DNA of 64,000 nt, taken from Iodidimonas nitroreducens. Lineage in GTDB: Bacteria; Pseudomonadota; Alphaproteobacteria; Sphingomonadales; Rhodothalassiaceae. Position numbers and translations under genes: made by a program. A model generated the notes under the pieces. That model was given only the letters and a program-made list of their open reading frames with translations. It did not search any database and was not told the DNA's origin. The DNA is taken from assembly GCA_000710935.1 (NCBI GenBank), contig BAYV01000008.1:1-64000 (forward strand), given 5' to 3'. Below are positions 30,627-32,814 of the stretch, piece by piece. Each line of letters begins with the position of its first letter. The first letter of the stretch is position 1.

Positions 30627-30639
30627 GCGCGAGATCAAA

Positions 30640-30888
30640 ATGCCTCTTTCTCCGGGGGCGGGTGTGCCAGCTCTGGTTACGGTTGGAGCATGCGATCCAC
30701 AGGGCGGGTTCCGACACACTGAAGACAAACGGCTAGAAAATATGAACGAATTGTTGTTGGAAGCGGGTGCCGATAGCGGGGCGGTGGATAGCATGGGAAA
30801 TTCGGTGCTCTGGTATCTCGAACGGAATGAGCAGTTGACGACCGATGAACGGCAATCGCTCCATACTCTCCTTGGGTCGCAGCCCTAG
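30640..30888 (+). CDS. Small ankyrin-like fragment
   Basis: A possible 82-residue product (ATG at 30640; the frame is open from 30484 inside the AraC gene). The C-terminal half has an ankyrin-type pattern: MNELLLEAGADSGAVDSMGN, then SVLWYLERNE. One repeat cannot fold alone, so it is more likely the tail of a lost ankyrin protein, or a chance frame, than a working gene. It lies at the edge of the hipBA region. Between its stop and hipA (30889-31003) I see nothing. Confidence 0.3.
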   Translation: MPLSPGAGVPALVTVGACDPQGGFRHTEDKRLENMNELLLEAGADSGAVDSMGNSVLWYLERNEQLTTDERQSLHTLLGSQP

Positions 30889-31003
30889 CGTTCACATGGC
30901 GGAGAGCTTATGAGCCATGCGTAAAAGCCACTGCCATGGAAACGGTATCACCGCCGCTTTGTTCAGGCATCACACCAACCTCATACAACGAGCATGGCTG
31001 GTA

Positions 31004-32335
31004 TCAGCCATTCAAATACGCTTCGATCTGCTTCGCTCTCGTGCTTGCGCCAGTCATGATAGCCTCTGCCATGGCGGCTGGCACGCGGGCGTCCAGTTGA
31101 GCTGTCAGGGCTTCTGAGGCGCGTGGCAGCGCGCTCACGATCTCGCCCATCACCTCATGCAACACGTCGAGCGGGAAGCCTGCGCGCTTTGCGGTCTGCG
31201 CAAAATGGCGTGGTGCAATTTCCGTCACCTTGTATCTGCGCTTGTTGCCGATCGCCATGGCAAGCCGGAATGCCTTGCGGGGTATCTGGCGGCGATCATG
31301 CTGCCACTGGGTGGACAGAATGTCGTAGAGCGGTGTCAGCCTGAAGCGCCCCTGCGGTCCCAGAAACAGGGAAAAATTCTTCGCGTGGCCGTCGGTCGCA
31401 CCGATCAGCCAAAAGATGATCTGCGCCTTCATGAACGCGCGCCGGTCGGCGTCCGGGTGATCGCTCGATTTCAGGAGGGCGATGCAGTTTTCGATGCCGG
31501 GGCCGCCGTCGCTTTCATATTTGCCGGTCGGCAGGATGCCGAGCGCCTGACATAGATCTTCCTGAGGAAGCCGCAGGAGACGCCCTTTGCCGTCAAGGCG
31601 GCGATCAAAGCGCTCAATGCTGAGAACAAGAAGATCATCGTCAAGCTGAAGGATTTCAGTCGGGGCCACGGCCAGCCCAAGGGCACGGCAAAGCGCCATA
31701 GAGACATGCTCGTTCTGCACGCTTTCGGAGAGGTCCACCTCACCATCGGGGGTTTGGACCCTCCCGATCTGGGGCTTCAGGATATGGGTGGTCGGGGTGG
31801 TGCCGGTCGGCACCATCCACTTGCCCCCATGATAAAGAAGGGCGGTTTTGTCCTGTGCGCCCGCCAGCGAAACCCGAAAGCTATCATCGCCGCCACGCAT
31901 GCCAAGAGGCGCGACGCTGAGCAAGCGAATGCGCTCGGCGATTGCCTCTGCGGTTATGGGCTCGCCTTCCGGCGGGCCGGGCCGCGCAGGCGGCATGTCT
32001 TCGGGCAGGAATTGAAGCGCGCCGACGCAATCGCGGCCAAGCGCGGCGAGCATTGAGAAGGCATCTGTCCCGTCCGCGCCCACTCTTGCCGCGATCCGTG
32101 CCCGGATGCGATCATCGTCTGGAAGCAGATTGTCGAAGACCGCCCTAACGGCGAGGCCGGTAAAGGGGCGGTCCACCAGCGGCATGGAGCGGGAGACCGG
32201 GATCGCATACTCCCAATCGAGCCAGTCCTGGACGTAGCCGAAGCGCGTCGCACCATCGGCGGCGCGCGCAAGCCTGCCTACAACGCGCCCGTTCAGCGCG
32301 ACAGTGAGCACGCCGGATTTGCGCCTCCGGCCCAT
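31004..32335 (-). CDS. hipA: HipA-type serine/threonine kinase toxin
   Basis: 443 residues. The N-terminal Couple_hipA domain is followed by the kinase. The P-loop-like segment RVSLAGAQDKTALL (about 154-167) has Ser156 at the position of the regulatory autophosphorylated serine of E. coli HipA. The catalytic Asp315 is in DGHAKNFS and the metal Asp338 is in YDILST. HipA kinases phosphorylate a glutamyl- or other aminoacyl-tRNA synthetase, stalling translation. The start overlaps the hipB stop by one base (TGATG). All catalytic residues are present, so the toxin looks intact. Confidence 0.92.
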   Translation of the reverse strand: MGRRRKSGVLTVALNGRVVGRLARAADGATRFGYVQDWLDWEYAIPVSRSMPLVDRPFTGLAVRAVFDNLLPDDDRIRARIAARVGADGTDAFSMLAALGRDCVGALQFLPEDMPPARPGPPEGEPITAEAIAERIRLLSVAPLGMRGGDDSFRVSLAGAQDKTALLYHGGKWMVPTGTTPTTHILKPQIGRVQTPDGEVDLSESVQNEHVSMALCRALGLAVAPTEILQLDDDLLVLSIERFDRRLDGKGRLLRLPQEDLCQALGILPTGKYESDGGPGIENCIALLKSSDHPDADRRAFMKAQIIFWLIGATDGHAKNFSLFLGPQGRFRLTPLYDILSTQWQHDRRQIPRKAFRLAMAIGNKRRYKVTEIAPRHFAQTAKRAGFPLDVLHEVMGEIVSALPRASEALTAQLDARVPAAMAEAIMTGASTRAKQIEAYLNG

Positions 32336-32580
32336 CAGAACAAGTCCTCAAGGCTCGGCGTGGTTTTGCCGTCGCGCGGACTGAGCGCCACCTCAAGGCC
32401 AAGGGCGGCCATGATCTCGAAGATAACCTGAAGCTCGGAGCGCGGCTTGCCACCCTCAACGGCTGAAATCGTCTGCTGGCGCAGTCCGGCTTTTTCGGCG
32501 AGCTGTGTCTGGGTCAGGCCCTGACGCTTTCGCTCCCGTTGAAGCGCTGCGCCGAGCTGTTGGGGATCGCGTATTGGCAT
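32335..32580 (-). CDS. hipB: HipB-type antitoxin, Xre family repressor
   Basis: 81 residues from the ATG at 32580, with GGAGG 6 bp upstream; a longer frame exists but would run through the operators. One Xre helix-turn-helix: LGAALQRERKRQGLTQTQLA followed by EKAGLRQQTISAVEGG. HipB binds and neutralises HipA and represses the operon. Three operator-like sites matching the known HipB pattern lie immediately upstream, one over the promoter. First gene of hipBA. Confidence 0.93.
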   Translation of the reverse strand: MPIRDPQQLGAALQRERKRQGLTQTQLAEKAGLRQQTISAVEGGKPRSELQVIFEIMAALGLEVALSPRDGKTTPSLEDLF

Positions 32581-32598
32581 GGTGTTCCTCCACCGTTG

Positions 32599-32627
32599 AA
32601 TATACGCGATCGCGGATAAAAAGGCAA
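32599..32627 (-). promoter_or_regulatory. hipBA promoter
   Basis: On the minus strand TTGCCT (plus 32622-32627) and TATATT (plus 32599-32604) are 17 bp apart, about 20 bp before the hipB ATG. Operator O1 (32601-32618) covers the -10 box and spacer, so bound HipB would exclude RNA polymerase. Confidence 0.6.
32601..32618. promoter_or_regulatory. HipB-type operator O1
   Basis: TATAC-N8-GGATA, against the TATCC-N8-GGATA pattern known for E. coli HipB. The central eight bases GCGATCGC are themselves palindromic. It overlaps the -10 element. Confidence 0.65.
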
Positions 32628-32645
32628 TATCCGCGTTCGATGATA
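32628..32645. promoter_or_regulatory. HipB-type operator O2
   Basis: TATCC-N8-TGATA, one half-site exact. It starts exactly 27 bp after O1. Its TATCCGCG half is also the mirror of the CGCGGATA half of O1. Confidence 0.55.
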
Positions 32646-32654
32646 AAATGACTT

Positions 32655-32672
32655 TATCCGCAAGCGCGGATG
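32655..32672. promoter_or_regulatory. HipB-type operator O3
   Basis: TATCC-N8-GGATG, 9 of 10 consensus positions. It starts exactly 27 bp after O2, so the three sites repeat at about two and a half helical turns. Confidence 0.65.
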
Positions 32673-32737
32673 AAAAGCCGATGCCAACAAAAGCTGCTGA
32701 CAAGCGCCAAGGGAATTATTTTATAGGAGGGGGAAAA

Positions 32738-32814
32738 TGGCGCGCTCGGAGAGATTCGAACTCCCGACCCCCAGATTCGTAGTCTGGTGCTCTATCCAGC
32801 TGAGCTACGAGCGC
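32738..32814 (-). tRNA. tRNA-Arg(ACG)
   Basis: 77 nt including an encoded CCA (plus 32738-32740). The acceptor stem GCGCTCG pairs with CGAGCGC. The D arm reads AGCTCAGCTGGATAGAGC and the T arm GGGAGTTCGAATCTCTC-like. Anticodon ACG at plus 32778-32780 sits in a CCAGA/TCTGG stem; A34 is normally edited to inosine to read CGU, CGC and CGA. The hipBA region starts just beyond its 3' end. Confidence 0.95.

Follow-up and report, generated by a model that had tools for sequence, protein, structure and literature searches.

What sets the distance between neighbouring operators in a toxin-antitoxin promoter? The question is raised by a 64,000-nucleotide stretch of DNA from Iodidimonas nitroreducens (contig BAYV01000008.1, positions 1 to 64,000; hereafter the window), in which three HipB-type palindromes precede a hipBA operon, starting at 32601, 32628 and 32655. 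The preliminary description of this DNA had reported exact 27-bp steps between them, and these are borne out, all three sites matching TATCC-N8-GGATA in nine of ten positions. The locus itself is an ordinary hipBA; the interest lies in the spacing rule.

The hipBA locus and its operator array

Both genes lie on the minus strand. The first, hipB (32335..32580), encodes an HTH_3 antitoxin/repressor of 81 residues and is preceded by a Shine-Dalgarno-like GGAGG (32587..32591, minus strand; a direct sequence reading) 6 nt upstream of its ATG. The second, hipA (31004..32335), encodes a predicted kinase toxin of 443 residues, and its ATG overlaps the hipB stop codon. Gene order, overlap and shared strand are those of a hipBA type II toxin-antitoxin operon, as are the HipA domains, Couple_hipA (PF13657, 88.9 bits) and HipA_C (PF07804, 174.5 bits). 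HipA aligns to E. coli HipA over 12-426 with 323 bits and retains the SLAGAQDKTAL loop and the DGHAKNFS motif, and the best PDB relatives of the two proteins are E. coli HipB and HipA. HipB scores below the cut-offs for the E. coli HipB equivalog (NCBIfam NF007271; 47.3 vs 79) and for Y4mF-type HipB (TIGR03070; 61.2 vs 71.65). From its Pfam HTH_3 domain, its context and its nearest PDB matches it is predicted to be HipB-like, and not an equivalog of the E. coli type.

Putative operator 1 (TATACGCGATCGCGGATA, 32601..32618) adjoins the hipB side and is followed by putative operators 2 (TATCCGCGTTCGATGATA, 32628..32645) and 3 (TATCCGCAAGCGCGGATG, 32655..32672). The 64-kb window holds no other match to TATCC-N8-GGATA with one mismatch. 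With up to two mismatches there are 25 matches in the window and 20.3 are expected; this is no more than chance would give, so a single site carries little weight and the signal lies in the clustering. Read together, the three sites yield a longer palindrome, TATCCGCG-NN-CGCGGATA, and only these three come within two mismatches of it in the whole 3.08-Mb genome. Could HipB also govern a genome-wide regulon? At up to one mismatch the genome has 88 places that fit TATCC-N8-GGATA, vs 42 with the reversed pattern, and the positions are scattered among the matches listed. No regulon is proposed, since sequence composition may account for this surplus and the longer palindrome has no such surplus: TATCCGCGNNCGCGGATA with up to three mismatches occurs at 11 places in the genome, vs 30 for its reversed control.

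The array is interleaved with a sigma-70-like promoter, TTGCCT-N17-TATATT, on the minus strand (32627..32599; 9/12 match). The putative -35 element TTGCCT (32622..32627, minus strand) falls within the 9-bp gap separating operator 1 from operator 2, while the putative -10 element TATATT (32599..32604, minus strand) overlaps the inner edge of operator 1, which occupies most of the spacer between them.

In the species collection, the nearest hipA genes are those of Parvularcula mediterranea (89%), Hyphobacterium indicum (82%) and an Aestuariivita MAG (79%). Each of these loci has three sites at steps of 27 and 27, and operators 1 and 2 of the window are kept in loci L018-L020. Among the four loci, invariant columns number 24/30 in the arms, 14/24 in the inner positions, 12/18 in the gaps and 7/70 in the flanks; the preliminary description had named sites unconserved in close homologues as grounds for giving the idea up, and this contrast between arms and flanks gives none. 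DNA homology to the Parvularcula locus (L018; 90%) runs from 31004, at the end of hipA, to 32677, 5 bp beyond operator 3, and homology to the other two stops at 32658 and 32671. Because DNA homology ends at or just beyond the operators, the array marks the outer boundary of the conserved unit.

Where did this unit come from? In a genome of the same genus (G002), an AraC-like gene lies about 50 bp from tRNA-Arg; both flank the hipBA module in the window, so that G002 has the empty site. Relative to it the window carries about 2.1 kb extra with the hipBA module and its array (approximate limits 30632..32730), and the tRNA-Arg(ACG) gene (32738..32814, minus strand) lies upstream of hipBA, in the flank outside the module. 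The second same-genus genome (G001) has the tRNA, and the AraC-like gene and hipBA were not found in the 6 kb compared. A search for HipA at E<=1e-20 found none in the two same-genus and four same-family genomes, two of the latter being less than 90% complete. The simplest reading of these comparisons is horizontal acquisition of the module beside tRNA-Arg. The two end stretches compared share no exact att-like direct repeat of at least 10 bp and no inverted repeat of at least 9 bp. No tRNA stands beside homologous hipBA in the stretches examined of L018-L020, L007 and L009, and hence the tRNA site is no part of the module.

A 27-bp period in hipBA promoters

Does the 27-bp period belong to this promoter or to its family? 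The spacing of homologous hipBA promoters, a comparison suggested at the outset, was studied by a motif-free scan in which, at each lag, two 18-bp windows are taken and their four 5-base half-sites intercompared (threshold 17/20). The first sample was picked by similarity to the window HipA and comprises 76 non-redundant regions: 74 loci from the best 80 of 225 homologues, the window and E. coli. For the second, 398 Pseudomonadota genomes were searched for PF07804, and 156 had a match; 110 of the matches, among the best-scoring listed, and 11 further loci make up 121 loci. Of these, 79 encode a window-like HipA preceded by a HipB, giving 74 non-redundant regions, and the 42 loci without a window-like HipA (by phmmer) were excluded from the main count. 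The samples are partly dependent (the proteins of L008 and L031, for example, are identical).

In the first sample, 56/76 regions score at lag 27 vs 1.8 expected from dinucleotide shuffles, 20/76 at lag 28 (1.3 expected) and 44/76 at lag 54 (1.6 expected). Scores are raised at lags 25 and 29 too, with 11 and 10 of 76 (1.4 and 1.3 expected), probably through register slips in the A+T-rich arms. The period stands out in the stretch upstream of hipB: it scores there in 53/72 regions, vs 1/74, 2/74, 4/73, 5/72 and 1/71 in control stretches inside hipA, downstream and further upstream. The second sample gives 37/74 regions at lag 27 (1.0 expected), 30/74 at lag 54 and 9/74 at lag 28, with a further peak at lag 50 (13/74; 0.9 expected). 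The 27-bp spacing is therefore a family rule and no local curiosity.

Named loci with arrays of 27 or 28 bp come from Pseudomonadota, Bdellovibrionota, Myxococcota, Spirochaetota, Thermodesulfobacteriota and Verrucomicrobiota, each of the five phyla other than Pseudomonadota being represented by one to three loci, several of them from MAGs. The sole cyanobacterial locus has no 27/28 array above threshold. The preliminary description had pointed to several HipB operators in E. coli, correctly, as K-12 has four with steps of 28, 39 and 28 bp, and had thought 27 bp striking at such a distance from that species. The comparison reverses this judgement: 27 bp is the usual spacing, and the 28/39/28 layout of E. 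coli belongs to the smaller group.

Explicit arrays, with steps of 26-28 bp and at most three sites called, were sought in 159 loci including near-copies. Beyond the 99% point of mononucleotide shuffles lie 116/159, of which 107 have three sites; 27-bp steps were called 184 times, 28-bp steps 37 times and 26-bp steps twice. The window, with its like palindromes at such steps upstream of hipB, falls within the 27/28-bp operator-array clade as defined in this analysis. The half-site consensus takes 27 forms (TATAC 33, TATCC 24, TATAG 7, TAGAC 7, TATGC 6, and others), some of which are probably register errors.

Which protein reads these sites? In 94 of the 116 loci, with HipB less than 80% identical, operator letters were paired with HipB columns and their mutual information ranked against permutations. 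The first two ranks fall to HipB Q36 and S39 (window numbering) with operator position 3, R34 follows at ranks 6, 13 and 16 with positions 6, 4 and 5, and nine of the top 20 pairs lie within residues 34-39. Q36, S39 and R34 align with A40, S43 and K38 of E. coli HipB, which we take to be DNA-contacting residues of its recognition helix. Two columns outside the helix, R15 and G10, rank third and fourth, which indicates that shared ancestry contributes and inflates all covariation values; yet the helix leads. With the top covariations in the recognition helix, the repeats most likely serve HipB as operators throughout the family, covariation being the main evidence. The earlier view of the window sites as HipB operators over the hipBA promoter is likewise well supported by this covariation and by conservation in homologues.

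The promoter keeps step with the array as well. A strong promoter-like pair is present in 49/94 loci, and its -35 element begins between phases 18 and 26 of the 27-bp unit in 45/49 (the phase is taken modulo 27 throughout and is approximate for 28-bp arrays). These starts lie in the gap phase, so promoter and array stand in one register.

Spacing along the HipB-HipA tree

How does the spacing vary with descent? A FastTree phylogeny of HipB and the N-terminal part of HipA (158 rows; rooted for display only, and flagged by the program for four pairs of meeting long branches) contains a split with local support 95. On side A, 130 rows comprise 89 with 27 bp, 26 with 28 bp, two with 50 bp and 13 with none; the 28 rows of side B comprise 16 with 50 bp, one with 27 bp and 11 with none. 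Of the 28-bp rows, 22/26 fall inside one 26-row group that includes E. coli. Arrays in this group read 28/39/28 (L117), 28/37/28 (L151) and 28/28/38/28 (L097), the enlarged gap adding 10-11 bp to 28, about one helical turn. One larger inner gap is a trait of the E. coli-like arrays L117, L151, L097 and L086, being 37-39 bp long, or 52 bp in L086.

Side B has another operator. Two or three copies of TTCCCG-NN-CGGGAA (at least 9/12) at 49-50-bp steps were found in 16/28 rows, representing 13 distinct loci, and some of these rows bear the label none in the tree count. By the stricter measure of at least 10/12, two such palindromes occur in none of the 130 side-A rows. One side-B locus is the second hipBA of the Iodidimonas genome itself (L017, G000:C105, 1117-1229), where the palindrome stands at 1117, 1167 and 1216, vs 0.04 expected by chance; with steps of 50 and 49 bp, it differs from the window locus in both operator and period. 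Side B thus resembles the window in its hipB-hipA operon and its regular palindrome array upstream, and differs in operator sequence, step and side of the tree.

A sub-branch of the 50-bp clade (L127, L149 and L156) is labelled 50 and lacks the TTCCCG palindrome; L127 and L156 have TCCTC-type repeats at 50-51 bp.

Further periods appear in more distant Hip kinase operons, among 36 regions from loci outside the main count. Palindromes stand 31 bp apart in 5/36 (L187, L171, L120, L211 and L144) and 40 bp apart in 3/36 (L112, L179 and L146), with 0.06 expected per lag and 70 lags tried. These values are possibly further clade-specific constants.

What the fixed distance may serve

Why should a distance be kept while the sequence at its ends changes? 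A fixed distance with a free sequence points to contact between adjacent bound complexes, and the constant spacing is best explained by their cooperative assembly. The looping suggested in the preliminary description found no support and is unneeded with sites 9 bp apart. On balance, the evidence favours a model in which the repeats are HipB operators interleaved with the promoter, and the conserved 27 bp fixes how neighbouring complexes meet. HipB and the HipB-HipA complex would repress their own operon through the three operators. The recognition sequence would drift along with the recognition helix of HipB while the distance stays constant, as complexes on neighbouring sites would have to contact each other in a single arrangement, probably with HipA facing HipA as described for E. 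coli. The promoter would then act like a ruler, making repression cooperative, and may also hold the bound toxin molecules together, restraining them. A higher-order assembly of HipA, HipB and promoter is known from E. coli to lie behind the classical high-persister mutants. Huang et al. (PMC7029023) mention such an E. coli assembly.

The contact need not run through HipA. Instead, the spacing might serve HipB-HipB contact, or cooperativity by DNA bending between HipB dimers, without HipA touching HipA. E. coli HipB binds its four sites cooperatively and bends DNA by 70 degrees, according to PMC3376134 and PMC3920265; the steps of 27, 28 and 37-39 bp differ by at most about one helical turn, which fits a phase-dependent effect; and the HipA contact residues are variable. 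Set against this, the spacing tracks the kinase clade (27/28 vs 50) while HipB is a small HTH protein throughout, and direct contact would be unlikely across 50 bp, some 4.8 turns. HipB and HipA diverge together, so a clade-linked spacing does not separate HipA bridging from HipB-HipB contact. Residues involved in HipA-HipA dimerization are reported in PMC6581861, and the two-site E. coli oligonucleotide published in PMC3376134 contains two sites 28 bp apart; such points favour HipA bridging, with HipB-HipB or bending cooperativity as its main rival, somewhat unlikely on the evidence as a whole.

Three further accounts would dispense with contact. The period could be set by promoter architecture, the 9-bp gap having to hold the -35 element and the 18-bp site filling the spacer. 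The gap phase of the -35 element in 45/49 strong pairs and the like layout of the window agree with this, and yet the next upstream gap is equally long without a promoter element, 107/116 arrays have three sites, and the -35 element lies in the inner gap at some loci and in the next gap at others, so that the idea is quite improbable. Were the repeats instead a recent tandem duplication, or iteron-like, the period would be the length of the duplicated unit, and the window copies do form a three-member family of 28-nt direct repeats, 71-79% alike, at steps of 27 and 27. Over 144 neighbouring pairs at 27 bp, however, identity falls from 0.85 in the arms to 0.55 in the inner eight positions and 0.37 in the gaps (figures that stand without a background value), the arms covary with the HipB recognition helix, and one period runs through lineages with differing half-sites; duplication has very little to recommend it. 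As for the idea that weak consensus matches fell into line by chance in a promoter richer in A+T, the two-mismatch matches in the window are indeed at the shuffled level, and the notion is refuted, as nearly as may be, by conservation, by the uniqueness of the extended sites in the genome, by lag 27 in 56/76 and 37/74 regions vs 1-5 of 71-74 in controls, and by 116/159 called arrays.

HipA bridging, the preferred form of contact, meets a difficulty of its own. P86 and D88 of E. coli HipA are positions of high-persister mutants. In the window protein they are replaced by A92 and S94; D88 is constant in the 28-bp group only (26/26), and P86 is likewise characteristic of that group only. As neither is kept in the window, the contact surface would have to differ there, a real weakness of the bridging model. 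G22, whose change to serine is listed among the E. coli high-persister mutants in PMC7029023, is kept in the window (G28) and in 74/90 rows with 27 bp, 24/26 with 28 bp and 11/18 with 50 bp. As a marker of 27/28 vs 50 bp the HipA contact residues were tried and set aside, giving mixed evidence and no clean separation.

A more general proposal, offered tentatively, is that the spacing is a constant of each Hip-kinase clade (27, 28 or 50 bp, perhaps also 31 and 40 in more distant families), retained through changes of operator sequence because the promoter joins the toxin-restraining assembly as a DNA ruler, keeping toxin kinases pressed to one another. If so, spacing could predict the geometry of toxin assembly from DNA sequence alone. 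Its retention across Pseudomonadota and five other phyla despite sequence change would argue, on evolutionary grounds, that cells generally use such assemblies, and the second clade, with its own constant in the same genome, makes a ready comparison. The rule would also offer a cheap means of finding and classing Hip operons and of predicting their operators.

How far were such arrays known before? The E. coli K-12 operon shares with the window its TATCC-N8-GGATA half-sites, its 18-bp site, several copies over the promoter, gene order and gene overlap; it has four sites at 28/39/28 bp, whereas the window has three at 27/27. For the hipBA1 and hipBA2 promoters of Caulobacter crescentus, the authors of PMC7029023 remarked on identical inverted repeats whose spacing is compatible with the higher-order complex of E. 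coli. This is an alphaproteobacterial precedent for regular spacing, from one species and, in the available text, with neither a figure for the interval nor a family-wide analysis. Legionella HipBST likewise carries three operators at even intervals ahead of its Hip kinase operon, as described in PMC10653801, and differs from the window in its HipT/HipS kinase family, 6-nt arms, 53-bp gaps and sequence. No family-wide or clade-specific spacing rule for hipBA was found in the available text of the literature searched (including PMC8262856, PMC10653801, PMC3920265, PMC3376134, PMC7029023, PMC10627512, PMC11487325, PMC4803016 and PMC6581861); an earlier statement may stand in the E. coli structural papers or in the supplement of PMC7029023.

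A close likeness to E. coli was noticed at operator 1. Judged by eye, 23/24 positions of window 32601-32624 (TATACGCGATCGCGGATAAAAAGG) are identical to the outermost HipB site of E. coli K-12 and its flank (L001, 3060-3083). Convergence on a perfect palindrome is the likely cause, the shared flank lying beyond that account. The two sites have the same orientation to hipB, and the HipB proteins are distant (36 bits).
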